Source: Mesorhizobium sp. SARCC-RB16n
GTDB taxonomy: Bacteria; Pseudomonadota; Alphaproteobacteria; Rhizobiales; Rhizobiaceae
Direction: 5' to 3'
Length of the DNA: 35,758 nt
Assembly (NCBI RefSeq): GCF_008520305.1
Contig: NZ_ML703304.1
Coordinates: forward strand, 1-35,758
Positions 13,659-33,716 of this stretch are shown in pieces. The notes beneath the pieces are model-generated. The model was given only the letters and a program-made list of their open reading frames with translations. It did no database searches and was not told the DNA's origin. Made by a program: the position numbers and the translations under genes. Position 1 is the first letter of the stretch. Each line of letters starts with the position of its first letter.

Positions 13659-13708
13659 TACGTTTCTAATGGTCTGCTAATAGTGCGAACCGGACAGCCC
13701 TTCCGTGA

Positions 13709-13722
13709 GCGCGCATGCGCGC
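13709..13722. repeat. perfect 14-bp palindrome in intergenic DNA
   Basis: GCGCGCATGCGCGC reads the same on both strands and lies in the 210-base gap between two glycosyltransferase genes. It is alternating purine-pyrimidine. It may be chance in GC-rich DNA; no function is assigned. Confidence 0.3.
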
Positions 13723-13868
13723 CGCAGAGAAGGATGTTTGACCCGCCGAGATTATTCTGTAGAGCGGTGATAGCGTGGACGGTCGAGGTCAGCTGCACAC
13801 AGGCCAAGTCCAAGACCTGGCGCCTGCCGCAGCAGGCTTCGAAGGCTGTTGCGCGACAGGATGCGGCC

Positions 13869-16256: not shown

Positions 16257-16325
16257 GTTGAAATCCCTCCGACCCGATTTTGCGTGACGGCATGCACAAG
16301 TAGATGAGCGCAGTCCGTCGGGCCT

Positions 16326-17717: not shown

Positions 17718-20051
17718 TTATTGGTAGGGAAAATCGACGATCTCTGAGCAAGCCCAATCATACATTTCAGTATTGTCGTGCGGGTCTATGTAGTAAGGAA
17801 CTTTCGCACGAATGCCGCTCCGCGCTCCTTCGTGTCGGCCGCAATTGGTGCCAGTTATGCGTGCAGCTATGAAAAGCCTGCATCCGCCCTGGCTTAACGG
17901 GCCCGACAAATGGACTTCCACAAGTTTGTCGTCTCGAGCGGATATAGCCAAAGAAGTTATCTCTGGGCTCGGCGAGCCCATTCCAACTACATCGACACCA
18001 ATCCCGGCCCCTAAGCTTGATATGTTAACGCGTTCATCGTCTCGCTCCAAAGTGATTGCTCTGGAATATTCAAGACCGATCACATTTGCTCGTAGCAATC
18101 GAACATGACAGACGCGTAACGGTTCAAGTCCAGGTCCGAAGAGGTCGTCAAGTAAATAACGCCCGAATTGAAAGCCAATACGGCGGTAGCCAATCGCTTT
18201 CAAATGAGCCGAGCGACCTTCCGAACGACTTTCAGGCTCATGATGGTAAACAGGTCCAATACACCGTATGTGCGGCTCAGCTTTTGCCACCCGAAGCTGT
18301 GACCAGACACTTTCGGCGATTATTCCCGGCCGCGATGCTCCCCGATTGGCTTGATATGTGAGCATAGGGACGGAATCCACCTGTCCGGTGAGGTGCCGAA
18401 TATCGGCGTCGTATTGCTGCCTGAGCAGGATCAGCCCTCGCTGATAGGAGTCACCGGGCGTTCCCCGTCCGGCGTCGGACTCACCGTGTGCGAGACATAT
18501 CGCTAGCATCCGGACACGTTTGCCGTCGGCACTGGCGAATTCCACTGCTTTCGCTACCAAGCGCATGACCTCCAGATGCTGTGCAGATCCTCTAAGCAAG
18601 CCGTCGGCGCTTCCTTGATTAAGCCCGCTCAGCGTTGTGCCCCCGCGGCCAACAGACGCAAACACCACGGTGGGCTTCCTTCCGAACCGGGCTTCGCAGG
18701 TTCTCAGAAAGTAGTCGGCCAAGCCGCCGCAGGGGGTTTCCTTTGTCGAACCCGTCGCCCGTTCAAACAGGTCAACCAGCTTAGACACGCGCCTCCCGCG
18801 AGGCGCAGAACCGGCATCAAACATCAACGCGCGCCCAGGATGTTGAGGTGCGGTGGTACAAGGCGCGTCCCCTGCCTCATCGTTATTGCCACCCAAGGCC
18901 CAGGACTGGCCGACGACAACGATCATGTTGAGCACACGAGGGTCGAAATCGAAGTGAGACGCCGTTCCCGGGTGATAAACGAGATCCCCTGCGCTTCCTA
19001 TGCCACTTTCTATCCCCCGCTGAAGCACTCCGGCATCTTTAGGGGCCGTCCCAGGACCAACCGTCGAGTTCTTCTCTTCGCGCCCTTCGACGTTGCTGGA
19101 TTCTCTGAGACGCTTACTTGAGATCTGTGTTGGTTCGTCGTTTTCGAGGTCAGTTGGAACGAACGTCGTCTCAATCAGGTCGTCCGGCGTCCCTCTCCCG
19201 GCGACCCTGCAAATGAATTTATACAGATGGTTGGCGATCTCGGGAAAAAAGGCAGGATTCCAATGGCGGCAATCATCGGCGAGAACACGTTTCACGCCAT
19301 GGCGCGCTACAAAAGGAGCAAAATCCATCTCATGCGCTTTTAGCCGACGTGCGACCTCGATCGATTGATCCTTAAGTTCAGTTGGCCAGGAGACAGGCCT
19401 TCCGTCGGGCATGTACCTAAAATTGTGATGGACCATCGCAAGAGGGACATCTAGCGTTTCCCTAATACGTCCAACGTAGTTGGTCATTTCATCGACGTTC
19501 AATTGCCGTGTGGTGGTCCTTCCAACCAAATCGTGCAGCCATTCGAACTCTTCCGTTACGGGAACCAATTCGAGAAGCTGGGCCGCATACTTGGCGCGAT
19601 CCTTTTCGTTCTGTTTAACGAGAGAAGACCTCCACTTAGCGACTATTCTTGAGGGCACATTGAGATGTTCGAGTTCAGGAAGGATAATTTCCTGAAACCG
19701 ATTTGTATTTACAACAAATCCATCGTACAGAATATCGATAGATGTACTCATCTCAACAATGATGATGTCTGCTGTATATGGGATCGCCATCTGGGCTTTA
19801 TTAGGCTCTCGGCTGCTGTCGAGATAGCAGAACCGCCGGACATGCTGCGGGATTGTTTTGCTCCCGGTTAAAAACTCGAGGAGCTGGACAGCGCTCGCGG
19901 CAGAAATGGAGAACGGCGTCCTGAGGAAGCCCATTTCCTTGTATATGCCTCCTAATTTATTGTTCTGATGCAGAGCAGAAATCAGGTTATTCAGGAGGCA
20001 ACCGCCAAACGACAGTGGGCGAATGTTATCCAATGCTATAGTTCCTTTCAT
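17718..20051 (-). CDS. two-domain protein with C-terminal sialate O-acetylesterase-like domain
   Basis: 777 residues from ATG 20051; the frame also opens at TTG 20060. The N-terminal half (to about 290) opens with LSFGGCLLNN and contains DIIIVEMSTSIDIL and VPLAMVHHNFRYMPDG, ending DCRHWNPAFFPEIANHL; it resembles GSCFA/WcbI-like capsule proteins but I cannot fix the family. After a polar linker (about 300-365) comes a carbohydrate-esterase domain: MIVVVGQSWALGGNN (GQS block), AICLAHGESDAG, and a late YHHEPESRSEG with HLKAIGYRRIG. Such domains remove, or in some systems transfer, O-acetyl groups on sugars. In this locus it probably tunes capsule acetylation. No signal peptide is visible, so it would act in the cytoplasm. 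Confidence 0.6.
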   Translation of the reverse strand: MKGTIALDNIRPLSFGGCLLNNLISALHQNNKLGGIYKEMGFLRTPFSISAASAVQLLEFLTGSKTIPQHVRRFCYLDSSREPNKAQMAIPYTADIIIVEMSTSIDILYDGFVVNTNRFQEIILPELEHLNVPSRIVAKWRSSLVKQNEKDRAKYAAQLLELVPVTEEFEWLHDLVGRTTTRQLNVDEMTNYVGRIRETLDVPLAMVHHNFRYMPDGRPVSWPTELKDQSIEVARRLKAHEMDFAPFVARHGVKRVLADDCRHWNPAFFPEIANHLYKFICRVAGRGTPDDLIETTFVPTDLENDEPTQISSKRLRESSNVEGREEKNSTVGPGTAPKDAGVLQRGIESGIGSAGDLVYHPGTASHFDFDPRVLNMIVVVGQSWALGGNNDEAGDAPCTTAPQHPGRALMFDAGSAPRGRRVSKLVDLFERATGSTKETPCGGLADYFLRTCEARFGRKPTVVFASVGRGGTTLSGLNQGSADGLLRGSAQHLEVMRLVAKAVEFASADGKRVRMLAICLAHGESDAGRGTPGDSYQRGLILLRQQYDADIRHLTGQVDSVPMLTYQANRGASRPGIIAESVWSQLRVAKAEPHIRCIGPVYHHEPESRSEGRSAHLKAIGYRRIGFQFGRYLLDDLFGPGLEPLRVCHVRLLRANVIGLEYSRAITLERDDERVNISSLGAGIGVDVVGMGSPSPEITSLAISARDDKLVEVHLSGPLSQGGCRLFIAARITGTNCGRHEGARSGIRAKVPYYIDPHDNTEMYDWACSEIVDFPYQ

Positions 20052-20178
20052 CGGCGTCAATCACCCTGGTTGGCAGTCCACCGCCAATTCGCCCGTGACG
20101 TCTGCTTAGCCCGCCAACCGACCCGGCGAACTGCATCTGCGCATTTCGCCAAAGGTGAATGGAAGGCTTTATTCTGGA

Positions 20179-20781
20179 TTATTGTGGATTGCGGACTAGC
20201 ACGCGAATCGGACACTCTGTATCGGATTGGCTCTGAAATCCCAGAGACATATGCAGCTTTATGACGATCGCATTTGAAGCTGCTACGTGTAAGCATATGG
20301 GAGTATTCGCATAACGGTCAATCACATGATGCATCAATCGCCGCGCCACTCCTTTCCCCCGGGCCGATTCGGCCACGGCCATGCGAGGAAGATACTTCCC
20401 TGCCTGTGATGCAAGAGGCTCAACGTTTGAGCCATGGCCTTCGAGGGTTCTTTTAAAATCCTTCCTCGCGTCCCGATCCAGGTGCCGAACGATGTCCAAC
20501 ATTCCTGTCCGCTGGCACAAATCCAGTTCGCCCGCGTTGATGACTGACAGAAGACCCAAAACCGAGCCTCCTTCCCAAAGGGCCCAGGTTTCGGAAAGTT
20601 CGGTCGACGGAGAATCGATCTGATCGGCTAGAATGAGGTTGAGCTTCCGTCGATCGATCGGAACCCTGTCATACAACTCGGGCAACGCTTGAAATACGAG
20701 GTCGCCCAAAAACGCCTTTCCGTCTTCCGAAAAATCGTTCTCAATTTCCCGCTTAGTTAATCGCCTGAACAAATGATCCAC
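20179..20781 (-). CDS. GNAT-family N-acyltransferase
   Basis: 200 residues from GTG 20781 with GAGGG just upstream. The GNAT acyl-CoA binding motif is RMAVAESARGKGVARRLMHH (about 133-152) and motif B is AASNAIVIKLHMSLGF (167-182). GNAT enzymes move acyl groups from CoA or carrier proteins to amines. The next gene upstream in the operon encodes an acyl carrier protein, and the one before that an adenylation enzyme. This enzyme is therefore a candidate for transferring the carrier-bound acyl or aminoacyl group to an amino sugar. That link is inference from gene order. Confidence 0.8.
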   Translation of the reverse strand: MDHLFRRLTKREIENDFSEDGKAFLGDLVFQALPELYDRVPIDRRKLNLILADQIDSPSTELSETWALWEGGSVLGLLSVINAGELDLCQRTGMLDIVRHLDRDARKDFKRTLEGHGSNVEPLASQAGKYLPRMAVAESARGKGVARRLMHHVIDRYANTPICLHVAASNAIVIKLHMSLGFQSQSDTECPIRVLVRNPQ

Positions 20782-20824
20782 CGTCGCCCTCGTCTCATAG
20801 CATATAAACTTCTATTGCCGCATA

Positions 20825-20855
20825 ATTGAATAAGTATCCAAGCTACTTATTCAAT
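20825..20855. repeat. strong AT-rich hairpin at the end of the carrier-protein gene
   Basis: ATTGAATAAGTA (20825-20836) and TACTTATTCAAT (20844-20855) form a perfect 12-bp stem with a seven-base loop. One arm covers the last codons and stop of the acyl carrier protein gene. No T run follows on the - strand, so it is not a classic terminator. It may protect the mRNA 3' end or lower expression of the downstream GNAT gene. Confidence 0.6.
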
Positions 20856-21094
20856 AGTTTCTCTTTGAGAACGTCGGAAAGACCTCCGACATTTTCAAAA
20901 TTAACAATCTCCGCGCCGCTGAAACGAACGTCGAATGCCTCTTCAATCATTGCAATGAGGCTAACGTGCGCCATACTGTCCCAGCCAACTACATCCTCCG
21001 CGACGGTCTCGCGTGCAATTTCCGTGTCATTGTCAGGGAACTCGCCGTTAATAATATCTACGACTTTTTGGAACAGGCTGCTGTCGTCCATCAT
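20843..21094 (-). CDS. acyl carrier protein-like (phosphopantetheine) protein
   Basis: An 83-residue carrier protein. The prosthetic-group site is Ser40 in VGWDSMAHVSLI, which fits the (D/W)DS(L/M) consensus. The WDS form is common in carrier proteins working with stand-alone adenylation enzymes, such as DltC-like proteins. Helices before and after have the usual spacing. The ATG overlaps the stop of the adenylation gene by four bases, so the two are translated together. It should carry the group activated by that enzyme on a phosphopantetheine arm in the cytoplasm. Confidence 0.9.
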   Translation of the reverse strand: MMDDSSLFQKVVDIINGEFPDNDTEIARETVAEDVVGWDSMAHVSLIAMIEEAFDVRFSGAEIVNFENVGGLSDVLKEKLLNK

Positions 21095-22578
21095 GTGCGC
21101 TCCTTCTTCATAACAAGATTATCCTCGAACCAAGCCGCAGCGGCTGTGCGGTCAAGCTTGTCATTCTCGCTGCGCGGTGCTCTCGGGATCTCCAGGATCC
21201 ATGTCGGTACAGCATGGGCTTCGACAATTTCTGACAAGGCTACCTTCAGCTTTCGCTCGTCAAGCAATCCTAGGCCATTAGATTCCACCACGGCCGCCAG
21301 TCCATCGCCTCGCTTAAATACGATTGCCACAGGCCACCCGCATTGCCGAATGGCGGAAACGACCTCATCGAGTTCGATCCGGTACCCCTTTACCTTCACC
21401 TGGAAGTCAATTCGCTCTTTGAAGAACAAGCGGTCGCCGCGGATTTCCGCCCAGTCACCCGTTAAATACCCGCGTTCACCCGACAATTCGTCTAGTTCGC
21501 GAAACTGCTGCTCGCTCTTTTCCGGATCGTTCCAGTAGCCCTCGGCAAGTTGAGGACCGCTAATCACAATCTGGCCTTCGTTGGCAGAACTGCCGCCGAC
21601 AAGCGAAATCTTCATCCCTTGTATGGAGCGACCGAGGGCAGCGGATGTGTGGCAGTAGGACGCGTAGTTGTCGGGCGTCAGGACTTGCTCAGTCACTGAG
21701 ATTGTAGCTTCTGTGGGGCCATAGGTGTTTTGGGCAAGGGCCTCTGGCACCGCGGCAAAAATGGCGTCCAGCTGCTGTCTAACGAGCGGTTCGCCGCAGA
21801 AATTAAAAAGCCGTACACTCCCGAGATTGTTCGCTGTCACTTGCCGTGCGCGCATCATTAAACTAACCGCGCTGGGCGTCGAGTTCCAGATCGTGATACC
21901 TTGTCTCGCAATAAATTCGGCCGGCAGCATTCTGTCGCCCTCATCACGCAAGGGGTGAAGGGAAGCGCCATGACATAATGCCCCGAATATATCGGTCATG
22001 CTGATATCGAAAGCTAAGTTGGGCTGTTGAGAAATACGGTCTTGCGGAGTAATACTTAGGCTTTCCAGCCAATCAACGTAGTTAGCTAAAGCGGCACGCG
22101 AGACCATTACCCCCTTTGGATCGCCTGTAGATCCGGAGGTGAACATGACATAAGCTAGATGATGACGCGTTCCTTTACCCAAGAAGCAGCGATCTGTGTT
22201 GATGGAGTCTGGATCCACGACCTTCAAGTTCGGAACCGCATCGGCAATTTCCGCCGCCAACTTTGGCTTGGCGACTACTATATTGGGTTGCAACCGATGC
22301 AGGATTCGCCGAAGCTTTTGTATTGGTGCAGCTGTGTTCAGCGGCGTGTGAAAGCCCCCAGCTAATCCGGCCGCCAGGATGCATGCATAGGCATCGGCTT
22401 CCTGAGGGAGCGCTATCGCAATTCTGGGCTGTTCGAACGACGAAAAAATTTCGGCGTAGATTCGGACTCGTTCCTCAAGCCAAGCGTAGGAAAATTGGCG
22501 CGCGCCAACGTCTATAGCCAGACGCTCGGGATAACGAGAAGCCATTGATAGAAATCGGTCGACTACATCCAGAAGCAT
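21091..22578 (-). CDS. AMP-forming adenylation enzyme (NRPS A-domain/DltA-like)
   Basis: 495 residues from ATG 22578, with GGGGA upstream; the frame is open to 22641 but the extra residues are not typical. Adenylation motifs are in order: MFTSGSTGDPKGVMVS (P-loop, about 145-160), FCGEPL, YGPTEATIS (286-294), YLTGDW (372-377), IDFQVKVKGYRIELDEV and the late catalytic Lys474 in ENDKLDR. It activates an amino or carboxylic acid with ATP and loads it on a carrier protein. The four-base overlap with the carrier gene makes the pair clear. The substrate pocket (FDISMTDIFGALCHG region) resembles amino-acid activators, but which acid cannot be read safely. Confidence 0.88.
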   Translation of the reverse strand: MLLDVVDRFLSMASRYPERLAIDVGARQFSYAWLEERVRIYAEIFSSFEQPRIAIALPQEADAYACILAAGLAGGFHTPLNTAAPIQKLRRILHRLQPNIVVAKPKLAAEIADAVPNLKVVDPDSINTDRCFLGKGTRHHLAYVMFTSGSTGDPKGVMVSRAALANYVDWLESLSITPQDRISQQPNLAFDISMTDIFGALCHGASLHPLRDEGDRMLPAEFIARQGITIWNSTPSAVSLMMRARQVTANNLGSVRLFNFCGEPLVRQQLDAIFAAVPEALAQNTYGPTEATISVTEQVLTPDNYASYCHTSAALGRSIQGMKISLVGGSSANEGQIVISGPQLAEGYWNDPEKSEQQFRELDELSGERGYLTGDWAEIRGDRLFFKERIDFQVKVKGYRIELDEVVSAIRQCGWPVAIVFKRGDGLAAVVESNGLGLLDERKLKVALSEIVEAHAVPTWILEIPRAPRSENDKLDRTAAAAWFEDNLVMKKERT

Positions 22579-22697
22579 GCCATATCCCCGTGTAAACGAT
22601 AAGGTTTCTATCGCGATGTCTTGGTTCCTCACCAAGGTCATTCAAGCTGATGATTTTTGTTCGCCCAACGACACAGCAGGCCGTAGGTGACGAGCTT

Positions 22698-23855
22698 TCA
22701 GTTGGCGAAAGTGACACCGCGCAACGAGCCAGCTGTCGACGTAACACCCCGGATCATACTTATAAATTTGTTGAATTGGACTACAGGCGAGTTTGCGACG
22801 TATATTATGTCTTTATCGCGAATGGCAAGTTGCTGCGCGTAAAAGTAGTTATTTGCTTTATCGAGCCGCAGTCGATAGATGACTGGGACGGTTTCAGAGC
22901 CAGCAAGATGCTTTGAGTGTGGCCTTATAGCCCGAACTAAGCTTGCAGACTCGCGGCGAAAAAGAAATATAGCACTGGTATCTGCTTGCGCGTCTTGAAG
23001 CCCGCCCGCTCTGGCGATTGCTTGGAGCAACGACATGGGTTCTTTGTCGATTGGGTAATCTTTTTGCGCCGTAACGGCACCAAGCGCTACGAAGATCGGC
23101 GGGTCTCGATAAACGTAGATATTGTCACCCGGATATACAAAGACGTTTTGTGTTGGATTTTTAAGGATCGTGTCTAGAAGAGTGACTTCGCTGAGCGTGC
23201 CGCGCGTGAGGCGAACCTTGGTCTCCTGTGGCATCGTCCTAACGCCTCCAGATTGGGCGATAACGTCTAGTAGACGGTCACCTTTCAGAGAAAGCGGGAC
23301 CCGCGCCGATCCAGTCGCGTCGCCTGAGACCGTTGCGGTAGCCGCGCTGCCCAGCGTTGAGACGATGACCTGTGGCTCAACGGCTTTATTTGCGAGCCGC
23401 GCCTCTATCGCCTTCGCCAGGGAATTAGGTGTGCGGCCTGCAGCAATGATACGGCCTGCGTAGGGCACACTGATTGATCCATCACGGTCTACAGTTTGCT
23501 GTGGAAGCGAAATGTTATGCGAACTTCCCGTGGCCGCGCCTTGAGCTGATGATCCGGAAAATAGCCCGCCGGAGGCCGCTTCGAAGATCGTTACAACAAT
23601 CTGGTCTCCGACCGTGAGTTCCTGTGAAGGCGCGGGCCGATGACGGGAGAATTGACTGGCAAGATCACCGGATGGGCAGTTGCGCAGCGCAGCCAGGGTG
23701 GCATCAGTGATATCGACCACCTCATAGGGCGCAGAATCGGCGCCTTGACCCTGCGCATTAATTACTGCGGTGGCTGTTGGCCCTGACGCCGGCAAATTAG
23801 CGCAGCCCATCAACAGCCCAGGCAACAGCAACAACATGTGTTTTCTTCTTGTCAT
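22698..23855 (-). CDS. outer-membrane polysaccharide export lipoprotein (Wza/KpsD type)
   Basis: 385 residues from ATG 23855; the frame is open to 24053 but a lipoprotein signal starts here. MTRRKHMLLLLPGLLMGC is a signal peptide with lipobox LMGC, so Cys18 is lipidated. A polysaccharide export domain follows (LTVGDQIVVTIFEA, VDRDGSISVPYAGRIIAAG, AIEARLANKAVEPQVIV). Two SLBB-type repeats follow, at RVPLSLKGDRLLDVIAQSGGV and FVALGAVTAQKDYPI. It would form the outer-membrane channel that carries the finished capsule out of the cell, together with the KpsE-like and ABC transporter proteins encoded upstream. Confidence 0.9.
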   Translation of the reverse strand: MTRRKHMLLLLPGLLMGCANLPASGPTATAVINAQGQGADSAPYEVVDITDATLAALRNCPSGDLASQFSRHRPAPSQELTVGDQIVVTIFEAASGGLFSGSSAQGAATGSSHNISLPQQTVDRDGSISVPYAGRIIAAGRTPNSLAKAIEARLANKAVEPQVIVSTLGSAATATVSGDATGSARVPLSLKGDRLLDVIAQSGGVRTMPQETKVRLTRGTLSEVTLLDTILKNPTQNVFVYPGDNIYVYRDPPIFVALGAVTAQKDYPIDKEPMSLLQAIARAGGLQDAQADTSAIFLFRRESASLVRAIRPHSKHLAGSETVPVIYRLRLDKANNYFYAQQLAIRDKDIIYVANSPVVQFNKFISMIRGVTSTAGSLRGVTFAN

Positions 23856-24088
23856 CACTTGTAAATTTCCCCGGCCCCAGCCTGCCATACCGTTGGGCTT
23901 TCCATAGCGTGGATCCTTGTGGAGCAGACGGAGGTAAATGTAGAAGAAGGCACTCGGGACCGGCTGTCGGGAGCTACGGTCAAGCTGGTTGAAACCTAAG
24001 CAGTTATGTTGGCGCCCGGATGTTGCATGACTCTGTCCGCGCTGGAGCGACACTTCGCGCCAATTTGACTGCTATCAATCCGCTAATG

Positions 24089-25312
24089 TCACGCAGCGAA
24101 TCTTGACCGAACCATACTTACGATCAAAGAGCCGAAAAACGCGAGGCCGACACCAATGATCGATGCGGCCAGCAGACTGGTGAACGGGTTGGGATAGGTC
24201 GGTCTCCCGTCCGCCCTGGGATCGGCAATCACAATGACGTATTTTTGCTGGCGGAGAGCGGCTTGCCGAGCGTAGTCGAGAGCCTGGCGGGCCGATGTCA
24301 AATTGCTTTCGGAATATCCCAAGGCAGCATTCAAACCTTCATAACGGGAGATCAGGTCTGCCGTCGATCCACTGGGCCCACCCCTGCGCTTTCGCATGTC
24401 CGCGATTCGTTCGGTAAGAGTCTTAATTTCGGTGAGGAGAGGTCGGCGCCTGGGGTGATCGCTTGCGCCGGTCGCGTCGATATTGGCCAGCTCGTTTTCA
24501 GCAGCTGTAAGCTGTGATTCCATTTGACCAATCAATCCGTCGAGCATTGTCACGTCGGCCGTCGGATCGACGATCCCGGTATCACTCCGCCATTTAGCCA
24601 TCTCCTGTCGGGCTTCTGTCGCGCGCTTCTCTGCACCGGCCAATTCTTGCTCGCTGAACCGTAAAGCATCGGCACGAGCGCGCTGGTTCATTTGATCCGC
24701 AAACTCCTCGGTCATGCGAACGAGAGTGGAGGCTAAGAGCACCGAGTCCTCCGGCTTAAAAGAGCTGACATTCAGGACGACAATTTGTTCCAGTATATTG
24801 AAACGCGCGGCTACGCGCGCGCTATAGGCATCAAAAAGCTGATCGTCATTCGCATTCTGAGGCAGCCGCACCAGAGGATCGGAATTGGGTCTGATAAATA
24901 GTTTGCGCACGTCAACCCGTTGCTGGAGCCTTGCCAAAGCCTCGCGCGAAACCAGAAAGTCCCGAGCCGCATATCCATCGACATATCCCTCCATCGGGCC
25001 GCTGCCTGACGAGAACAATGTGTTGACAGGCGTCGTCACCTGAGCATCCGCCCCCCCGCGGATCGCGAACCTCACCTCCGTCGTATACATTGGGGTGGCG
25101 AACAAGAAGACGAAGATTGATGTCGTCAAAATAGGAGCAACTACGCAGAGAACTGCCGCCCAGACCCCCCATTTTGACCGAGCGCGCGTTAAGCGGCGCA
25201 ATTCGACAAATCGACGCTGCTCGTCTCTCCCTACGGGCAAGACTGGGAAGGTCGGAGAATCCGCATCAGAGAAGGTCGTCGGTAAGTTCGTTGTCGAACT
25301 CCTTCTGAACAT
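24089..25312 (-). CDS. KpsE-type capsule export inner-membrane protein
   Basis: About 407 residues from ATG 25312; the frame is open to 25369 and the true start is uncertain. A cytoplasmic N-terminus leads to a first membrane segment (GVWAAVLCVVAPILTTSIFV). A long periplasmic part with coiled-coil helices follows (FSEQELAGAEKRATEARQEM, MLDGLIGQMESQLTAAENEL), and a second membrane segment (LLAASIIGVGLAFFGSLIV) ends the protein. This is the layout of the KpsE/RkpR co-polymerase family, which links the ABC transporter to the outer-membrane channel. Its start overlaps the end of the KpsT-like gene by 47 bases, which argues for coupled expression. Confidence 0.85.
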   Translation of the reverse strand: MFRRSSTTNLPTTFSDADSPTFPVLPVGRDEQRRFVELRRLTRARSKWGVWAAVLCVVAPILTTSIFVFLFATPMYTTEVRFAIRGGADAQVTTPVNTLFSSGSGPMEGYVDGYAARDFLVSREALARLQQRVDVRKLFIRPNSDPLVRLPQNANDDQLFDAYSARVAARFNILEQIVVLNVSSFKPEDSVLLASTLVRMTEEFADQMNQRARADALRFSEQELAGAEKRATEARQEMAKWRSDTGIVDPTADVTMLDGLIGQMESQLTAAENELANIDATGASDHPRRRPLLTEIKTLTERIADMRKRRGGPSGSTADLISRYEGLNAALGYSESNLTSARQALDYARQAALRQQKYVIVIADPRADGRPTYPNPFTSLLAASIIGVGLAFFGSLIVSMVRSRFAA

Positions 25313-25967
25313 CGTAAGAGGCAGCACGAGGCGGATACCGATCAAGGGCCTTTTTGAGATCATTCGCAATTGCCACTCGTCCCCTGTTAACGATAATAGC
25401 CCTATCGCAGTATCTGTTCAGATCAGCGACACGATTGCTCCCGGCGATTAGCATCTTCCCGCTCGACTGCCGCTCAAATAGGGTGTTCCACAGATAGCTA
25501 AAGCGGTCTTTAAGAAACGGGAATACGCCCTCGACTATATACATATCAAACGGCGGCAATAGCGCGGCGGCTAGTCCGAATTCATAACGAAATTGCGCCG
25601 GCCAGTGGTCCACTTTGCCGTCGATATGCCTGGGGTCGGTAACAATCATTTCGATTGCCGCATTCGATACATGCATGTCCAGACCGTAAAGCCTGCATAT
25701 CAGGGCGATCACATGTCGGCCGGTGACGTTGCCGCGCAAAAATGCTGGGCGACCAATCGGCCACGATGTTAAGCCGATGAAACTCACCCTCCCCATCTGC
25801 GGCGGCCTGAGCCCGGCTAAAAGATCAATTGCCGGCTTCTTCGCAAGCGGATCGCCTGTAAGTAGGGCATAGCGTCCAGTCGGAATGTCGAGATCGACTG
25901 ATGACGCAATCTGCCGACGAATGCCAGCAATCTCAGGCCCATCTGAAGTCCGCTGGAAGGCTATCAT
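25266..25967 (-). CDS. KpsT-like ABC protein with degenerate ATPase motifs
   Basis: 233 residues that align along their length with KpsT capsule-export ATPases (DLDIPTGRYALLTG, SWPIGRPAFLRGNVTGRHVI, CRLYGLD, RYCDRAIIVNRGRVAI). Yet every catalytic motif is altered. Walker A (GRNGAGKST in KpsT) is TGDPLAKKPA at 37-46, the signature SSGM is WPAQF (122-126), Walker B LIDE is IVEG (144-147) and the H-loop His is missing (AGSNR, 175-179). It should not hydrolyse ATP. It sits between a KpsM-like permease and a KpsE-like gene, exactly where kpsT belongs. It may be a structural partner, or the organism may supply an active ATPase from elsewhere. Confidence 0.8.
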   Translation of the reverse strand: MIAFQRTSDGPEIAGIRRQIASSVDLDIPTGRYALLTGDPLAKKPAIDLLAGLRPPQMGRVSFIGLTSWPIGRPAFLRGNVTGRHVIALICRLYGLDMHVSNAAIEMIVTDPRHIDGKVDHWPAQFRYEFGLAAALLPPFDMYIVEGVFPFLKDRFSYLWNTLFERQSSGKMLIAGSNRVADLNRYCDRAIIVNRGRVAIANDLKKALDRYPPRAASYDVQKEFDNELTDDLL

Positions 25968-26117: not shown

Positions 26118-27371
26118 CTAGACGGGCTGGACATGTCGGCGGAACCACCCTTCCAGAATAAGAGCAGAACAAATCAAGGAAACTACCGCAAGCCAAAAAT
26201 ACGAAGGCCTCGCGTCGGTGCATGGATATGAGTGGAAATAAGCACCGCGTAAAAGTTGCATGCCATGGCTCAACGGATTCCAAAGTACGTACTTCCTATA
26301 TACCTCTGGCAATTGCTCAGAGACATAAAACACAGACGAAAACATCTGTAACAAGCGCTCAACGGCACCCGTTAGTCGCGCAAAAAAAGGCCATACTCCA
26401 ATGACAACACCAAATATGAAGCCGATGCTAAGTCCACATAGCCACATACCTACAAAATAGAGCGCGGCAATAAGAACGTCATCGGGCAGAGAAATTAGAT
26501 CTAGGTAGCGGCCGACGCAAAAAAGTAGGCTTATTGAAAACATATAGACAATCAAGTACAATATTGCGGTAGTTATTCCCTGATGAAATGGTGATACCAT
26601 TGGAAGATTTAACATTACTCTATTGTGCGCTATCTGACCACTAACCCGGAAGATCGTCATCCGGCAGGCTACCCAAGTGCCAGAGCCGAGCAGTGCAAAT
26701 GTCGGGACGTCCATATTGAGAATGTAGTGAGTGCCAATTAAAAGATATACTGAACTGATAATAGCAAGCATAATCATTGGCTGAATTAGCAGCCATATAA
26801 TTGAAAAAGGCCCATCACCGTTTATAGTGTGAAAGTTATGAATGAAAAGAGCCCATATTATTGTTATTGATTTGATAGGATGACTACCATTCGTTTTATG
26901 TCCAATTGTGTTTTGATGCGTAACCATTTCCAGGTATCTCAGAGTCCCTTCCTGTTCCTGGACCAAAGCGGTGTATTCTGCATCCTTTTTTGCGACAAGC
27001 GCCTCTCGCTCCGCGCGAATTTCGACTGAATTGCGGCGTGCCTGGATGTTCAATTTAGCTTGCTCGTTCTTCTGAAGGAGCTCGCTCAATTCAGCTGGTT
27101 CATATCCCGCAGCCCAAACGTCGACACCAGCTCGGATGTCATGTTCCAAAAGGCGGATTGTCTGTCGTAGTATTCTAAGCTCGACATCCTGCAGCTCCTT
27201 GTCTAGCGGAGCACGCATGTTCTCCATCGCGGTCTTGAGTTGCTCTTGAGCTCTTTCGTAAATTTCCCGCCGCTCGGCCACCTTGCCATTGGAGCTTCTT
27301 GATAGAATTCGAAGAATTATCTTCAAATATGGAATTCTTTTCGGCGGTTTGCCATCAGCTGCCGATTGCAT
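26118..27371 (-). CDS. KpsM-like ABC-2 permease with N-terminal coiled-coil extension
   Basis: 417 residues; ATG 27371 has GGAGG upstream. Residues 1-160 are an extra region: PYLKIILRILSRSSNGKVAE, RREIYERAQEQLKTAMENM and long charged helices (about 60-155). From about 170 comes an ABC-2 permease of capsule export type with about six membrane segments (GDGPFSIIWLLIQPMIMLAI, ILYLIVYMFSISLLFCVG, FVGMWLCGLSIGFIFGVVIG) and the family-typical FSSVFYVSEQLPEVYRKYVL and NPLSHGMQLLR. Usual KpsM proteins have about 260 residues. It would carry the lipid-linked capsule across the inner membrane. The DNA coding the membrane part is unusually AT-rich. Confidence 0.88.
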   Translation of the reverse strand: MQSAADGKPPKRIPYLKIILRILSRSSNGKVAERREIYERAQEQLKTAMENMRAPLDKELQDVELRILRQTIRLLEHDIRAGVDVWAAGYEPAELSELLQKNEQAKLNIQARRNSVEIRAEREALVAKKDAEYTALVQEQEGTLRYLEMVTHQNTIGHKTNGSHPIKSITIIWALFIHNFHTINGDGPFSIIWLLIQPMIMLAIISSVYLLIGTHYILNMDVPTFALLGSGTWVACRMTIFRVSGQIAHNRVMLNLPMVSPFHQGITTAILYLIVYMFSISLLFCVGRYLDLISLPDDVLIAALYFVGMWLCGLSIGFIFGVVIGVWPFFARLTGAVERLLQMFSSVFYVSEQLPEVYRKYVLWNPLSHGMQLLRGAYFHSYPCTDARPSYFWLAVVSLICSALILEGWFRRHVQPV

Positions 27372-27479: not shown

Positions 27480-28514
27480 TCAAAGAAGTCCGCTAGCGCC
27501 GAAATGTGCCTGATACCAATCCACAAATCGCCCGACGCCGTCTGTTACGGATGTGGCCGGACGGTATCCGACGGACCGCTCCAGCGCCGACGTGTCTGCA
27601 AATGTATCAGGCACGTCGCCGGCCTGCAGCGGCAAGAGTTCGATTACCGCCTTGCGGCCGAGCGCGCTTTCCAGCGCCTCGACATAGGCGGTCAGCTTCA
27701 CCGGGTTGTTGTTGCCGATGTTGAAGATGCGCCAGGGCGCGCTGCTGGTCGCCGGATCCGGATGGCTGGAATCCCAGGCCGGGTTGGCCGCGGCGGGGCT
27801 GTCGCTGGCGCGGATCACGCCCTCGGCTATATCCTCGACATAGGTGAAGTCACGCGTGTGGTTGCCGTTGTTGAACAGCTTGATCGGCTCGCCGGCCAGG
27901 ATGCTCCTGGTGAACAGGAACAGCGCCATATCAGGGCGCCCCCAGGGACCGTATACGGTGAAGAAACGCAGCCCCGTCGTCGGCAGGCCGAACAGATGGC
28001 TGTAGCTGTGCGCCATCAGTTCGTTGGCGCGCTTGGTGGCGGCGTAGAACTGCAAAGGGTGGTCGGCCGGGCGATGCTCGGAAAACGGCATGTCGGTGTT
28101 GGCGCCATAGACACTGGAAGTGCTGGCATAGGTCAGGTGCCCGACACGGCTGCTGCGGCAGGCCTCGAGCATGTTGGTGAAAGCAACGATGTTGCTCTCG
28201 ACATAGGCGCGCGGGTTTTCCAGGCTGTATCGCACACCTGCCTGGGCGGCGAGATGGATCACCCGGTCCAAGGCATGGTCGGCAAAGCACGAGTCAACGG
28301 CGGCGCGATCGGCAAGGTTGGCGCGGATGAAATGGAAGCCGCAATTGGTTGTCTTGTTGAGTTCCCGGAGGAGGCTCAGGCGCCCTTCCTTGATGGCTGG
28401 ATCGTAATAGGCGTTGACACTATCGAAACCAATGACCTCATCGCCGCGCGCTAGCAATCGCTTCGCGACATGATAGCCGATGAAGCCGGCCGCGCCGGTG
28501 ACCAGAACCTTCAT
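27480..28514 (-). CDS. NAD-dependent epimerase, UDP-glucuronate 4-epimerase type
   Basis: 344 residues from ATG 28514. An extended SDR fold: [20 protein letters not shown] (NAD-binding glycine motif), [43 protein letters not shown] and the catalytic FYAATK. The FDSVNAYYD and [13 protein letters not shown] signatures are typical of LpsL-type enzymes, which turn UDP-glucuronate into UDP-galacturonate. A related N-acetylhexuronate substrate is possible because the upstream gene is a TviB/WbpO-like dehydrogenase. Its ATG shares one base with that gene's stop (TGATG), so both enzymes are made together and probably supply an acidic sugar for the capsule. Confidence 0.9.
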
Positions 28515-29788
28515 CAGAAACGCCCGTCCGTATGTTCCCGAGGGAAGATGCCTTTTATATCGTAAATGACTCCGGGATCTCTGCACAGCGCCTTCAGCCC
28601 GGCAACGCCAAGCGTCTGGAACTCCCTATGCCCGACCGCCACGACGATACCGTCATAGCCGCCCTCAGGAATGCTTCTGGTGCTGGAAAGGCCGAGTTCA
28701 TGCGCGCATTCCGCGGGCGAAACCCAAGGGTCCCAGATATCTATGGCGGCATTGTATTCCTGGAGGCGGCTAACGATATCCGCGACTTTGGAATTTCGCA
28801 GATCCGGGCAGTTTTCCTTGAAGGCCGCGCCCATGATCAAAATCCTGCTGCCGACGACCGAAATGCCCTTCCGCATCATCAGGCGCGCTGCCTGGTCAGC
28901 CGCATGCTGACCCATGCCATCATTGATGCGGCGACCAGCCAGTATCACCTCCGGATGGTAGCCAAGTTCTTGCGCCTTGTGAGTGAGATAGTAGGGGTCG
29001 ACGCCTATGCAATGGCCCCCAACTAGCCCGGGCGTGAAGCGCAGGAAATTCCATTTGGTGCCTGCAGCAGCCAACACCTCGGATGTGTCGATTCCCAGTC
29101 TGTCAAAGATCAGCGAAAGCTCATTCATTAGGGCGATGTTGAGATCGCGCTGCGTGTTTTCAATGACCTTGGCGGCTTCCGCAACCGCGATTCTGCCGAC
29201 CAGATGCGTCCCGGCAGACACGATCGAAGCGTATAGCGCGTCTATTGCATTGGCTGCTTCCGGCGTCGAGCCACTGGTCACCTTCACGATTGTCTGCAGG
29301 CGGTGCTCGCGGTCACCTGGATTGACACGTTCAGGACTGTATCCCAGAAAGAAATCCTTATTGAAACATAAGCCTGAGGCTTTTTCGATTAGCGGAGCGC
29401 AGATCTCCTCTGTACAGCCCGGATAGACTGTTGATTCAAAGACAACGACAGCGCCCGGCGAAATCGCTTCGCCCACTGTCTTGGATGCCGCGACCAAGGG
29501 CCCCAGATCGGGGCGGTTGGCCTTGTCTATCGGCGTCGGCACGGTGACGATGAAGATGCCGCAGGATTTGAGTTCAGCCCTGTCGGAGGTGAAAACCAAA
29601 CCTGTGGCAGCGCACATCTCAGCATGGTCAGTCTCGAGCGTGGAATCTTCGCCGCGCCTTAAGGCGGCCACCCTCTCCTCGTTTATGTCGAAGCCTACAA
29701 CATCTCGCCGTGCGCCGAAGGCGACGGCGAGGGGAAGCCCGACGTATCCAAGCCCAATAACCGCAATTTTTTTATCATCCAGATTCAA
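28514..29788 (-). CDS. nucleotide sugar dehydrogenase (TviB/WbpO-like)
   Basis: 424 residues starting at TTG 29788 with GGAG seven bases upstream. The NAD-binding motif is [18 protein letters not shown]; further motifs are [38 protein letters not shown] and the catalytic Cys260 in [14 protein letters not shown]. The enzyme oxidises C6 of a UDP-hexose or UDP-N-acetylhexosamine to a uronic acid in two steps. The sequence resembles UDP-N-acetyl-glucosamine/galactosamine dehydrogenases more than plain UDP-glucose dehydrogenases. It is the first gene of the capsule run, and an ops-like element lies in its leader. Confidence 0.9.
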
Positions 29789-29840
29789 TTTTCCGCTCCG
29801 GCTCTTCGACTATTCGTGGCCTATCTAACGTAGCCAACCC

Positions 29841-29872
29841 ATGGCTACCGCACTTCCGGGTGAACCAGGAAG
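29841..29872 (-). promoter_or_regulatory. ops-like element in the capsule operon leader
   Basis: On the - strand, CTTCCTGGTTCACCCGGAAG can form a hairpin and is followed directly by TGCGGTAGCCAT. The GCGGTAGC core is shared with the enterobacterial ops element (GGCGGTAGCGTG), the site where RfaH joins RNA polymerase. It lies about 53 bases upstream of the start of the sugar dehydrogenase gene, the first gene of the operon. A near-copy is present at 32727-32759. An RfaH-type gene lies 0.5 kb upstream. Confidence 0.65.
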
Positions 29873-30238
29873 TTAGTTACGATATCGCGGGCTTGGAATT
29901 GACGAACGTGGCAGACAACACAAATACAAAGCACGTATTATGTCTTATCGTTCCGCCATTGCTTCCTGACAAATCGTGCTAAGGACTACAGACGTCCTGT
30001 GACAATTATATAACGAAGCAAGTGAAACCTTCCTCTTACTTTATCAAAGCCGCGAAGAGGTGGTGATTGCCTTATTGAAAGGCTGTGGACCTATCGGAAC
30101 GATCCCATGGGCGGTACGGCAGATCCCCAATGGGTCGTTCATACCCCCTTCCAGTACTCGCGCGTCCATTGGAGCGGAGCCACTCGGCATCGCGAAGAGA
30201 TTTGCATCGCAGGGGCGACCCGGCACACTCCGGCGCCC

Positions 30239-30262
30239 CACGCTACCGCACTCCGGGTGCGC
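30239..30262 (-). promoter_or_regulatory. ops-like element downstream of the antiterminator gene
   Basis: On the - strand this reads GCGCACCCGGAG followed by TGCGGTAGCGTG. The last 12 bases match the E. coli ops consensus GGCGGTAGCGTG at 11 positions. It lies 66 bases past the stop of the RfaH-like gene and 450 bases before the first capsule gene. The CACCCGGA-GTGCGGTAGC portion is shared with the other two copies. Confidence 0.65.
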
Positions 30263-30327
30263 TGACCGGCCGGACGTTGGAACTTGAGCGAGCAGCCGCG
30301 CAGGAAGCGCAGCCTTCCTTCTGCTGC

Positions 30328-30846
30328 CTACGCCGGCAACAAGTTTAGTGTCGTCGTGCGCACAGGTACGCGCGCACCCAGAAATTCCAAGAGCACGGTC
30401 ACCCGGCCTTTGTCGTCGAGGTCAGCAAGAGCGCCTATCTGCCTGGCAAACGGCCCGCCGACCAATTCCACCCGATCTCCCGGCTCGAGTCCGGCGCTGA
30501 GATCAATTATGTCACCTGCCCCGACCCTTGACCTAAGTGCATCGATGAAGCCTCGCTCCACAGTCGCGGGTGCTTCGCCGTTCGTGAGAATCTTGATGGC
30601 GCCGTACGTCCCGTTAACAGACCGCCATCGAGCACCCTCAGCGTGCTTCAGAAAGAGGTAGCCTGGAAACAATGGGATCGTACGAACAGATGTCTTGCGA
30701 GCGTGACATACGATCCGCCGCATCCTCGGCAGGAACACGCAGAACCCCTGATTATCTAGGTTGACTGCCGCAACAGCTTCTTTCCGTGCTTTCGTGGCGA
30801 CTACAAACCACCCACCTGGAGTCACAAGGCCACGCAGATTTTCCAT
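30328..30846 (-). CDS. NusG/RfaH-family transcription antiterminator
   Basis: 172 residues. Residues 12-110 form an NGN domain: GGWFVVATKARKEAVAAVNL and TIPLFPGYLFLKH, the hallmark of NusG and RfaH. Residues 118-172 form a KOW domain (EPGDRVELVGGPFARQIGAL). It is a paralogue-type protein rather than housekeeping NusG, judging from the divergent NGN and its place at a capsule locus instead of beside rplK and secE. RfaH-type factors bind RNA polymerase paused at ops sites and prevent termination in long, poorly translated operons. Three ops-like repeats lie nearby on the same strand, and the capsule run downstream exceeds 20 kb. Confidence 0.88.
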   Translation of the reverse strand: MENLRGLVTPGGWFVVATKARKEAVAAVNLDNQGFCVFLPRMRRIVCHARKTSVRTIPLFPGYLFLKHAEGARWRSVNGTYGAIKILTNGEAPATVERGFIDALRSRVGAGDIIDLSAGLEPGDRVELVGGPFARQIGALADLDDKGRVTVLLEFLGARVPVRTTTLNLLPA

Positions 30847-31245
30847 GGTAATTGATGGTCCTGACCGCCGCTTCAGATCTCGTCACGTTTCGCACGCCTG
30901 AACATTCCGAAGTAAGTCGTCATCCCACCGTGCCTCCCGCATCTGGATGCCGTGCCGGACGGGCGACGGACCTCGAATACCACCCCCCGGCGGCAACGCT
31001 TGGTCTCCTAAGCGAGGTCTACGCTCCCGTCGTCATCCAAAAGGACGACGGGATGCGATTACTTGGCGATGCTTCCAGAAAACTGCAGCAACATGGGCAA
31101 CCGGAGGCAAGTCGTCCCTTTATATTAGCGCATCATAAAATACATGGATCGGCATGCGGAGCATATGAGCTCCACGCGAGTTGAAGCTTCGCGGTGCAAT
31201 ATGGCTCCGCCAGGGCTCTGTCCGGCGTATCCGGCAAAGGGCAAG
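30847..31245. other. spacer between LuxR and RfaH-like genes
   Basis: About 400 bases with no supportable gene. It contains a perfect inverted repeat: CCCGTCGTC (31026-31034) and GACGACGGG (31044-31052), loop nine bases. No T run follows on either strand. It could end the LuxR transcript or fold in the leader of the RfaH-like gene, whose promoter should be here. Confidence 0.5.
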
Positions 31246-32475
31246 TTATCGTCGACGTCCAAGGGGCTGACCCGGCCCATGCCGGATCCTGTCGTCCGGC
31301 TCCGATCGGTGCTGTAGGCCTGGGAGGACGAGGCGCTGTACCACGGCCATGAGCTCGGCATGGCGCCCGACTCCCATCTTCGCGAAAATGCGCGAGCGAT
31401 GGGTTTTTGCAGTGGTGATGCTGATGCCGAGGCTGTCTGCCGCGTTGGGCAGGCTTACGCCTGCGGACAAATGTTCGAGCATGCGGGTCTCAGCAGGAGT
31501 CAACCTGAACATCCGCGCGACGGTTCCCATTTCGGCTCCCGATGGCGCGTCGGCCGCAACGATGAAGACGGCGGCTGTGGCCTCGGCGACGAGCCGGGTG
31601 CGCGCGCCTCTCGCAAGCGGCAGCACATGCGCCGTCGCCACCGTGCTGCCACCATGGACAAGCGGCACACCTATGCCTTTGCGGCCGATGCCTATCTCGT
31701 TACGGTGGGACAGTTCGATCGCGCGGAGCAACTCGGTGGTTGCACCCGGATGTCGAGCCGCGATTTTACCCGCCTGCGAAATGATTGGTAAGCGCGACGC
31801 CAGCATGACCCGAGCCGGCTCGTTGGTGTGCAGGATGCGCCCGGTGGGCCCGACGATGACGACCCCTGCGGCGACATTGTCCAAAGTTTCGCCGAACGCC
31901 GCGTTTTCCAGATTTTTCACGTCGATCAGGTCACTGATCGTTATGGCCCGACGTAGATGTGGGGCAAGTACATGGAGGATATGCCGATCCCGATCCGCGA
32001 TCATCCCCTGGCTCTCGTGCCGATAGAGATCGAAAGTGACGAACCGATCAGCTTGGCGGATCAGCACCAAGTGCATTGAGTCCACATACCCGCACGACGG
32101 CAATATTTCCTGGGCCCAACGCGTGCTGCCAAAAACGTTTGGAGCGTCCTGCATGGGTGAAAATGGCACGTCCAGGTCACGCACCCAAAAATCCGGCAGG
32201 CTGACCCAGGCGCCAACAGTATCGACGCCGTACTCGGATATTCCGTTGATTATCTCCGGCTCGAACTTCCACGACTCGAGTATGCGAACTGTCGGCGGAT
32301 CGATACTATTTGCGGTGATCATGCCTGCACAGCATCCCGTCGCCGCTCCGATCATAGCTATGGTCGGCGGCCAGCGAGAAGGCTCTATCGTACAGTCGTA
32401 AATGGCCCCTACCGACTCCGAGAGCAACATCGGATCGATCACCGAAACATCGGCTTCTTGCCCTGTGCGTGCCAC
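31246..32475 (-). CDS. LuxR-family transcriptional regulator
   Basis: 409 residues from GTG 32475 (AGGGGGGAG just upstream); the frame is open to 32622. The C-terminus is a LuxR/GerE helix-turn-helix: RLTPAETRMLEHLSAGVS, NAADSLGISITTAKTHRSRI and FAKMGVGRHAELMAVVQRLV. The middle (about 195-310) looks PAS-like (LDNVAAGVVIVGPTGRILHT) and may bind a signal. The N-terminal 190 residues have no autoinducer-binding motif that I recognise. It lies upstream of the antiterminator gene on the same strand and has an ops-like element in its leader, so it may control, or be controlled with, capsule genes. The ligand is unknown. Confidence 0.85.
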   Translation of the reverse strand: MARTGQEADVSVIDPMLLSESVGAIYDCTIEPSRWPPTIAMIGAATGCCAGMITANSIDPPTVRILESWKFEPEIINGISEYGVDTVGAWVSLPDFWVRDLDVPFSPMQDAPNVFGSTRWAQEILPSCGYVDSMHLVLIRQADRFVTFDLYRHESQGMIADRDRHILHVLAPHLRRAITISDLIDVKNLENAAFGETLDNVAAGVVIVGPTGRILHTNEPARVMLASRLPIISQAGKIAARHPGATTELLRAIELSHRNEIGIGRKGIGVPLVHGGSTVATAHVLPLARGARTRLVAEATAAVFIVAADAPSGAEMGTVARMFRLTPAETRMLEHLSAGVSLPNAADSLGISITTAKTHRSRIFAKMGVGRHAELMAVVQRLVLPGLQHRSEPDDRIRHGPGQPLGRRR

Positions 32476-32726
32476 CGCACTCCCCCCTACAAAGAATTGT
32501 TTGCGCAGCTTCAGCCCGGGGCCGCCACCCCGGAATGCAGACCATCTGATCGCTTGATCGCGGCTCGTCTGTCCGCATTTGGCGCAGACGCGCGTCACCA
32601 AACGGCAGAGTTTCAGCTGCAACAGGCAGCTGGAAGCCAGCCTACCGCAGCATTTTGCAGTATTCTCGCGAACTGTAACGGATTGTTTCGGCGCGATAAC
32701 TTCGGTCCACCCCTATGGACAAGAAC

Positions 32727-32759
32727 ACAGCTACCGCACTTCCAGGTGAAGCCCGGAAG
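32727..32759 (-). promoter_or_regulatory. ops-like element upstream of the LuxR gene
   Basis: The - strand reads CTTCCGGGCTTCACCTGGAA followed by GTGCGGTAGCTGT. It parallels the element at 29841-29872, including the CTTCC..GGAAG inverted repeat and the GTGCGGTAGC core. It lies about 250 bases before the LuxR start codon, in the likely 5' leader. This would place the regulator gene in the same antitermination regulon. Confidence 0.6.
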
Positions 32760-33716
32760 GTTTAATGGCCTGTAAGGACCTAATTAAAGCCGCACGCGAA
32801 AATCGCTTGGCGACAGTGCTTCCGCATTTAGGTGGGAGTCAAAAGGATCTCAAGAAATATTATTCTTTTGAATCGCGTTAAGCGGATAACATTTCTGCTT
32901 ATCATCCGCAAAAACAAGCAATTCAGAAATGAATGGTCTATTTGAACTACCCGCCTGAATCGTCATCTGATCTCAAAAAGGGGAACCTGCGCTTTGGCCC
33001 AGTCGACGTCAGGGAGAGCAAGTGACGTTCATGCCCTCCAGCGGAAATGTCGAGTTGAATCAGACAACTCGGTCAAAGATGCACATGCTTTACAGCACGC
33101 CAAGCTAGCGAACAGAGCGTTCCGCTGCCAATGTATCCGAGCGATACGACGCCGAAGTAGCGAAAGCAAGCGCCGGTTGCGACTCTTTAGCGGATACAAT
33201 CGATTAATAAATGGGCGAAAAGTGGCGTCTAGATAGAAAGAGTGAGGAGCAGGACCTCGGCGTCTGTTAACGATGATCTGGGAGGCCTGACCTTCGCCGC
33301 CCGGCCTTGTTACGCCAATTCTAGGGATCATTTGTGCGAGGTAAACCGAAACTCCGAAACTGCCCCGCCGACGCGCCCTCAAGGCCAGCCCAATAGATGA
33401 GGCGCAAGAGAAGCTGATGCTGAGATGGCCGATTGGCTCCAGAAAGCAGGGTGCTTCGTGGTCGACATGTTCATAGCTCTTGCTGTCGCTTGAGACGAAC
33501 AGCTCATGACGCAGCTTACCGCCCGCCAGCGGTTCCTCGATCTGCGCAACGGTCACCACGCGGTCGGCCGACGGAGCAAATGCCTCCGTCGGCCATCGAT
33601 GCCTCACCTCGTTCATAGGATCAACCGCGGTTGCGTCGATCCTCTGTCCCAGTAAAGTCATCTCCTCGCCCCCGCGACGCGCCCCATGAGACTTTTATGG
33701 CACCCCTGCGAGCGCG
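32760..33716. other. region without a convincing gene
   Basis: Nearly 1 kb with open frames on both strands, but none with a good start site or family resemblance. The longest, 33029-33661 on the - strand, is Arg-rich and has no motif. Small inverted repeats are present: CGAGTTG/CAACTCG at 33051-33071 and GCGGAT/ATCCGC near 32880-32910. The DNA between 32770 and 32950 is AT-rich. It looks like degraded or transferred sequence. Confidence 0.4.

Follow-up and report, generated by a model that had tools for sequence, protein, structure and literature searches.

The window analysed here, a stretch of 35,758 nt from contig NZ_ML703304.1 of Mesorhizobium sp. SARCC-RB16n, carries three copies of a short intergenic element built on the core GCGGTAGC, placed around a gene for a NusG paralogue of the RfaH class and ahead of a long capsule operon. 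The element is real, recurs in Alphaproteobacteria, is tied to the RfaH-class paralogue, and is an ops/JUMPstart variant. Very probably it is the recruitment signal of this specialised NusG paralogue, an alphaproteobacterial counterpart of RfaH with JUMPstart/ops.

The element and its tie to the paralogue

The string GTGCGGTAGC occurs in three exact copies in the window, on the minus strand only (29844-29853, 30242-30251, and 32730-32739); with one mismatch allowed there are six sites, where 2.18 are expected. Searching for the longer pattern CACCNGGAN{1,3}GCGGTAGC recovers the three exact sites and nothing more, with no match in 100 shuffles, and the minus strand copies of CACCYGGA(A)GTGCGGTAGC span 29844-29862, 30242-30259, and 32730-32748. 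All three are intergenic, as the first-pass annotation had proposed for its three shared motif copies; the inverted repeats just upstream of the core at sites 1 and 3 (Table 1) had gone unmentioned there. Read along the minus strand, the order is element 3, a LuxR-type gene (open reading frame [ORF] start at 32622), the NusG paralogue (stop at 30328), elements 2 and 1, and then dehydrogenase, epimerase, ABC export genes, and glycosyltransferases, with the core of element 1 beginning 63 nt before the dehydrogenase ORF (29788). The same annotation had claimed an RfaH-type gene and a polysaccharide operon of ∼20 kb. The gene is borne out by its Pfam match (Table 1) and by RfaH TIGR01955 as its best NCBIfam model, and the operon by export and assembly genes that all lie on one strand; we put its length at ∼22-24 kb, reaching about 7620, or 5874 if an unassigned ORF is counted.

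For position counts we used 86 loci that encode a paralogue relative: six (L001-L006) taken from the 87 plasmid records matched by tblastn, and the best 80 of 84 loci from a genome scan using a five-sequence alignment (L007-L086). In 60 of the 86 loci, the pattern CACC N4-8 GCGG[TC]AGC occurs 0-300 nt downstream of the paralogue match on its strand, and in no locus does it occur there on the opposite strand. Ten further matches elsewhere in these loci translate into 0.09 expected at that position. Three of the 60 (L026, L036, and L067) have the core GCGGCAGC, and L071 has GCGGCGCC. Of the four plasmid loci taken from Mesorhizobium and Bradyrhizobium, three have the element directly after the paralogue: in L002 and L003 it precedes the same dehydrogenase as in the window, and in L004 (8845-16477) a sugar transferase and pseudaminic-acid genes, so that it is not bound to one polysaccharide. 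No element stands directly after the paralogue in the Bradyrhizobium locus L001, nor in L005 or L006. A blastn search of 72,556 plasmid records with element 1, insensitive to diverged copies, gave five matches, which are the five Mesorhizobium plasmids encoding the paralogue; element 2 gave a single 20-nt match within an MFS gene, taken as chance. Phage records held two distant matches. A contig labelled Chloroflexi (L041, 7928-8480) has an element nearly identical to the one in L032 and is probably misbinned.

Whole genomes were searched with the covariance models R1 and R3, trained on elements adjoining the paralogue, because the loose pattern CACCN{5,7}GCGGTAGC matched 20 of 20 genomes mostly by chance, its reversed control being still more frequent. 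Similarly, TCACCN{4,7}TGCGGYAGC matched 140 of 146 genomes, which makes a genome tally uninformative; we took further only those of its matches that adjoin the paralogue or have the form TCACCCGC..TGCGGCAGC. The strains searched are related, so the counts that follow are not independent.

The genus sample comprised 146 genomes of Mesorhizobium, the genus of L007, many of which also supplied training sequences. R3 elements of >30 bits occur in 37 of these, all within the 39 that have a paralogue of at least 200 bits. Of the 38 strong elements, 37 follow the paralogue on its strand at a distance of 37-115 nt, and the 38th is the one before the LuxR-type gene in the genome of L007. The two paralogue genomes lacking a strong element are G031, with a weak adjacent match (21 bits), and G049, with none adjacent. 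Among 385 genomes of the class, R1 found the element in 32 at E ≤ 1e-3, and 30 of these have a paralogue of at least 80 bits, which is present in 88 of the 385 (P = 2.4e-19, Fisher's test); at E ≤ 0.01 there are 57 element genomes, 48 with the paralogue and nine without. Seventeen of the 20 loci taken from the class search are absent from the training loci. The co-occurrence with a NusG paralogue suggested in the first-pass annotation is thus seen in 37 of 37 strong-element genomes of the genus and 30 of 32 of the class, and a motif widespread without this link, which we also looked for, was found in neither sample.

One Mesorhizobium-type genome (G089:C1:7124799-7125847) has a paralogue copy with an internal TGA plus a separate C-terminal fragment, with an equally scoring element after each; this is apparently a tandem duplication of the junction.

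Hairpin, core, and protein

The 32 nt before the core fold with a mean z of -2.7 over 67 elements (62 of them below -1), at a mean of -13.2 kcal/mol vs. -7.4 for shuffles. We fitted two alignments to the model structure. In A6 (74 matches, at least seven of them chance-like and not at the element), 95.1% of cells are paired, compared with 33%-56% when the structure is slid, and seven of eight pairs have changed on both sides; in A7 (46 matches) the values are 96.5% and six of eight. The relatives were chosen on the core, and its invariance among the aligned elements is therefore due to selection of the sample. The aligned elements share TTCACCC, and since TTCACC is kept where it is unpaired with the core-side arm, it may also be read as sequence. 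After the hairpin comes the core, with no U-tract.

The core GCGGTAGC equals positions 2-9 of the Escherichia coli ops, including C3, G5, T6, and G8 (PMC5995543; this and the other papers cited are quoted from excerpts), and those four bases are present in all three window copies. At the pause consensus T11-G12 the 61 distinct elements vary, with T11 in 34, G12 in 23, and T12 in 38. The E. coli rfbB leader has the same order as here, its hairpin ending 1 nt before GCGGTAGC.

The best model for the window protein is NCBIfam RfaH TIGR01955 (72.4 bits, below the cut-off of 144.5), and the LoaP model scores 47.2 bits (below its cut-off of 125). A profile of 50 relatives searched against PDB has RfaH as its best match (93.1 bits; best NusG, 71.4). 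All 50 relatives keep the RfaH base contacts Q24, N70, T72, and G74; H48, A49, and W74 are family-specific invariant residues. The AlphaFold2 model (mean pLDDT 84.6) has an all-beta C-terminal domain (CTD; strands 125-128, 137-143, 148-155, and 158-165), which predicts a beta-KOW without an alpha-helical autoinhibited form. Monomorphic beta RfaH homologues are described, in the excerpt of PMC13015549, as acting without requiring ops and as selected in cis; it is this that makes the element attached to the gene here notable.

Elements elsewhere, neighboring genes, and a possible cassette junction

Twenty-four of the 86 loci have no element match. Setting aside three plasmids and four variant-core loci leaves 17 genomes, and 11 of these have the element elsewhere (E ≤ 0.02; 13 matches in total). 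Most of the elsewhere elements fold as a hairpin before the core, L124 and L125 poorly. The genes after them (nine loci and L110) encode MocA (twice), DegT, ABC-2, asparagine-synthase-type, Ugd, FkbM, and ABC transporter proteins, which agree with surface polysaccharide, as well as a flavin reductase and one protein with no family match.

Among 87 first or second proteins after the element (100 picked, with 13 excluded as paralogue, regulator, window, or second copies), the commonest families are nucleotide-sugar and polysaccharide enzymes: Epimerase and GDP-mannose dehydratase (22 each, overlapping sets), bacterial sugar transferase (nine), DegT aminotransferase (eight), and UDP-sugar dehydrogenase (five), among the 25 of 91 families listed. 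On the upstream side, a MarR_EPS (TIGR04176) gene precedes the paralogue in L015, L016, L020, and similar loci where the window has the LuxR-type gene (in the first of these below the cut-off), and may be a second partner of the system.

A second Mesorhizobium subgroup of the paralogue (about 160-182 bits) is found in 22 genomes. All 10 of its loci taken (L133-L142) have a variant element, eight with the core GCGGCAGC. That core has a C at position 6 of ops, even though E. coli RfaH reads the flipped base T6 there (PMC5995543). In four loci we saw no clear rule linking core base 6 to the residues at the R23 and R73 positions. A second element of the form TCACCCGC..TGCGGCAGC is present in all eight second-subgroup genomes among the matches listed (L143-L150); in six of them it shares the paralogue's contig, at a distance of 17-28.5 kb and on the opposite strand. 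Among the same matches the string also occurs in a genome outside the subgroup (G063, C1:362099). Three of four scanned proteins after the second element are Wzy_C. In the six genomes with the opposite-strand arrangement, the second C-core element and the paralogue locus apparently belong to two facing operons under one factor. Both the elsewhere elements and these second elements are explained by a diffusible factor that reads the element, and not by simple read-through from the paralogue gene.

Sequence comparison places homology breaks at the elements. Between the window and L007, similarity extends from about 32935 to 30208 and stops ∼35 nt beyond the element 2 core; L007 position 8071 holds a homologous element in the same place as window element 3. 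Beyond the break L007 has a nucleotidyl transferase instead of the window's dehydrogenase. With L002 and L003, the window shares homology from the element 1 hairpin (about 29874) onward into the leader of the dehydrogenase. The window therefore gives the appearance of a regulator cassette fused to a capsule operon that came with an element of its own, an origin that would account for two successive elements. A tblastn search between elements 2 and 1 found no remnant of a second paralogue.

Table 1. Features of the window (positions in nt)
Feature	Position	Strand	Basis and remarks
Element 3	32722..32768	-	Hairpin 32739-32759, then core GCGGTAGC at 32730-32737; upstream of LuxR-type gene
LuxR-type (GerE) regulator gene	31246..32622	-	Pfam GerE, E 3e-8; true start uncertain; 384-aa homologue in L007
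RfaH-class NusG paralogue, 172 aa	30328..30846	-	NGN and predicted beta-KOW; Pfam NusG, E 4e-14
Element 2	30234..30280	-	Core 30242-30249; GCGGTAGCGTG matches E. coli ops 2-12; weak hairpin 30252-30274
Element 1	29836..29882	-	Hairpin 29852-29873, then core 29844-29851; capsule operon leader
Nucleotide-sugar dehydrogenase (TviB/Ugd type), operon gene 1	28514..29788	-	Pfam and NCBIfam
NAD-dependent epimerase	27480..28586	-	Pfam and NCBIfam
KpsM-like ABC-2 permease	26118..27371	-	NCBIfam KpsM 64 bits, Pfam ABC2_membrane 24.3 bits; both below cut-off
Probable export ATPase (VexC-like)	25266..25967	-	Weak; NCBIfam match, no Pfam match
BexC/CtrB/KpsE-like export protein	24089..25369	-	178 bits vs. 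model cut-off of 437.5
Outer-membrane polysaccharide export protein (Poly_export/SLBB)	22698..24053	-	Pfam
Remaining co-directional operon	7620..22641	-	AMP-binding enzyme, GNAT, unassigned ORF, TPR, three glycosyltransferases, TPR protein
ORF, possible operon extension	5874-7280	-	No Pfam match

Element 3 scores 46.7 bits with covariance model R2 and element 2 scores 25.6 bits with R1, each as a member of that model's own training set (eight sequences for R2). Inside the capsule operon lie an AMP-binding enzyme (21091-22641) and a 780-aa protein without a Pfam match (17718-20060), both on the minus strand. Toward the far end of the window are the phospholipid N-methyltransferase PmtA (34126-34743, minus strand, 350 bits) and, by eye, the start of a GlmS-like ORF (35571-35758, plus strand); L004 also has a glmS copy near its paralogue. 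A scan of the window for promoters and terminators was not above shuffles, and a scan for tRNA genes found none.

Proposed mechanism, alternatives, and known systems

By analogy with the known systems, we infer a mechanism in which all three copies are transcribed. While transcribing the leader, RNA polymerase would produce an RNA hairpin with arms around TTCACCC and would then stand at the ops core GCGGTAGC, where it would pause and expose the non-template bases of the core. The paralogue would load at the paused polymerase, displacing the housekeeping NusG, and would ride with it along the long polysaccharide operon, so that neither Rho nor pausing would halt it. Element 3, before the LuxR-type regulator and the paralogue, could allow self-activation, while elements 2 and 1 would act between the paralogue and the capsule genes. 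The first-pass annotation had spoken of an "independent or little-described antitermination system." A little-described system, with putative antitermination, agrees with our results; "independent" goes too far, given a core identical to enterobacterial ops. A bolder version would be a class-wide system in which a constitutively open beta-KOW factor of the RfaH class reads a bipartite signal, made of the nascent TTCACCC hairpin and the non-template ops core, and in which the element is also the junction for cassette exchange. We offer this tentatively, at a little under an even chance.

A number of observations weigh against the element as a recruitment signal of the paralogue. The association is incomplete in both directions. 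Twenty-six of the 86 loci have no pattern within 300 nt of the paralogue; L029, L065, L068, and L070 have it 1.35-1.6 kb further downstream, and L009 has it 2.9 kb upstream of the paralogue, on the opposite strand. In the class sample, 58 of the 88 paralogue genomes have no element match at E ≤ 1e-3 and 40 at E ≤ 0.01, and the element is present without the paralogue in two genomes (G285 and G385) and nine genomes, respectively. Six of the 17 genomes searched elsewhere have no element at E ≤ 0.02, four of the 13 elsewhere elements (L119, L122, L125, and L127) have no co-directional ORF picked after them, and a flavin reductase follows one. The hairpin at site 2 equals shuffled sequence (z = -0.13); among 10 elements of the second subgroup, the predicted hairpin stops 4-9 nt short of the core in eight and reaches it in two, and folding of the second elements is poor (-5.6 to -7.9 kcal/mol). 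The protein evidence is also mixed. The window protein alone ranks the NusG entry 8f5g (36.7 bits), described in Foldseek as a NusG-RNA complex, above RfaH (33.5 bits), and Foldseek ranks NusG structures first and RfaH fifth. The base-reading residues of RfaH are mostly replaced (K10 kept in five of 50 relatives, H20 in 23, R23 in 25, and R73 in four), and the equivalent of E48, which serves RfaH autoinhibition, is E in only three of 50. Finally, the promoter scan gave six sites vs. 4.5 in shuffles, so no start site was located.

The element might instead be a double-stranded operator for the neighboring LuxR-type or MarR-type regulator and no transcribed elongation signal. A MarR_EPS-model gene does stand upstream of the paralogue in 19 of 22 scanned upstream proteins (24 picked, two excluded), and the window and L007 have LuxR-type genes. 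The regulator type, however, varies among lineages while the element is constant, the element near the paralogue is always on the paralogue strand (60 to 0), and it sits downstream of the regulator genes and ahead of the operon genes; an ops core with a covarying hairpin is also unexpected for an operator, and we consider this explanation improbable. A shade less probable still is a stand-alone leader attenuator or pause, independent of the NusG paralogue. The hairpin is stable and conserved, and ops-like sequences pause diverse RNA polymerases (PMC7593976), but such a device leaves unexplained both the genome-wide co-occurrence with the paralogue and the elsewhere elements in paralogue genomes, and it is the core, not a U-tract, that follows the hairpin. 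The homology breaks at the elements (window/L007 ∼35 nt past the core of element 2, window/L002 at element 1) could point to a mobile repeat or a recombination hotspot at the edges of polysaccharide cassettes. Against this, strand and position are strict relative to one protein family, there are 38 strong matches over 37 genomes, the pairing is conserved, and strong copies without the paralogue occur in none of 37 genus genomes and two of 32 class genomes. We find this the least credible of the explanations, and very improbable.

Within a recruitment signal for the paralogue, the part played by the hairpin can be read in another way. The paralogue may read non-template DNA alone, as does E. 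coli RfaH, with the hairpin having no role in recognition. The E. coli rfbB leader likewise has a hairpin before GCGGTAGC, yet RfaH recognition is by DNA (PMC5995543), and site 2 and the second subgroup retain the sequence with a poor or displaced hairpin. However, the compensatory changes in seven of eight pairs show selection on pairing, and K10 and R73, needed for DNA reading by RfaH, are mostly replaced. This variant is a possibility, at well under an even chance.

Comparison with known systems brings out both the likeness and the differences. As in the RfaH/ops system of E. coli and other enterobacteria, the core GCGGTAGC corresponds to ops 2-9, the family profile, though not the window protein alone, has RfaH as its best PDB match, and the targets are long surface-polysaccharide operons. 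In contrast to that system, the paralogue is encoded beside its element (in those 60 of 86 loci), a TTCACCC hairpin precedes the core, the family mostly lacks equivalents of R73, K10, and E48, and the CTD is predicted to be beta. JUMPstart RNA (Rfam RF01707, gamma-Proteobacteria) likewise has a stem-loop followed by GCGGTAGC in polysaccharide leaders (PMC2864571). Its model exceeded the cut-off in none of the 385 class genomes (E. coli was the one positive among 14 controls), with sub-threshold matches of 24 bits in two (G353 and G496). At window site 2 it reached 21 bits vs. a cut-off of 35, and in eight loci there was no match at the gathering score; the Rfam scan of the window region and these loci yielded nothing beyond this weak JUMPstart match and some at chance level.

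LoaP with the dfn RNA hairpin of Bacillus is also a NusG paralogue tied to a leader RNA hairpin. However, its UNCG hairpin causes no discernible pause according to the excerpt of PMC12691694, whereas here an ops core follows the hairpin and polysaccharide operons are targeted. The proposed bipartite signal of RNA hairpin and DNA core would thus differ from both RfaH, which uses DNA, and LoaP, which uses RNA. The monomorphic beta-RfaH homologues (PMC13015549) are encoded beside long operons and have a beta-KOW, as here, but are described in that excerpt as not needing ops, whereas here a conserved ops-like element lies beside the gene. UpxY of Bacteroides is likewise encoded beside long operons (PMC7819879). 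Among the open-licence literature matches listed, judged by title and the opening of the abstract, none describes an alphaproteobacterial ops element.

These results provide a concrete candidate recruitment signal for RfaH-like proteins, together with covariance models, loci, and neighbor genes, and they open two questions to testing: whether recognition of ops predates autoinhibition by fold switching, and whether any function is served by the hairpin beside ops, which is present in the E. coli JUMPstart too. They also give targets for the control of capsule and exopolysaccharide in rhizobia and other Alphaproteobacteria.

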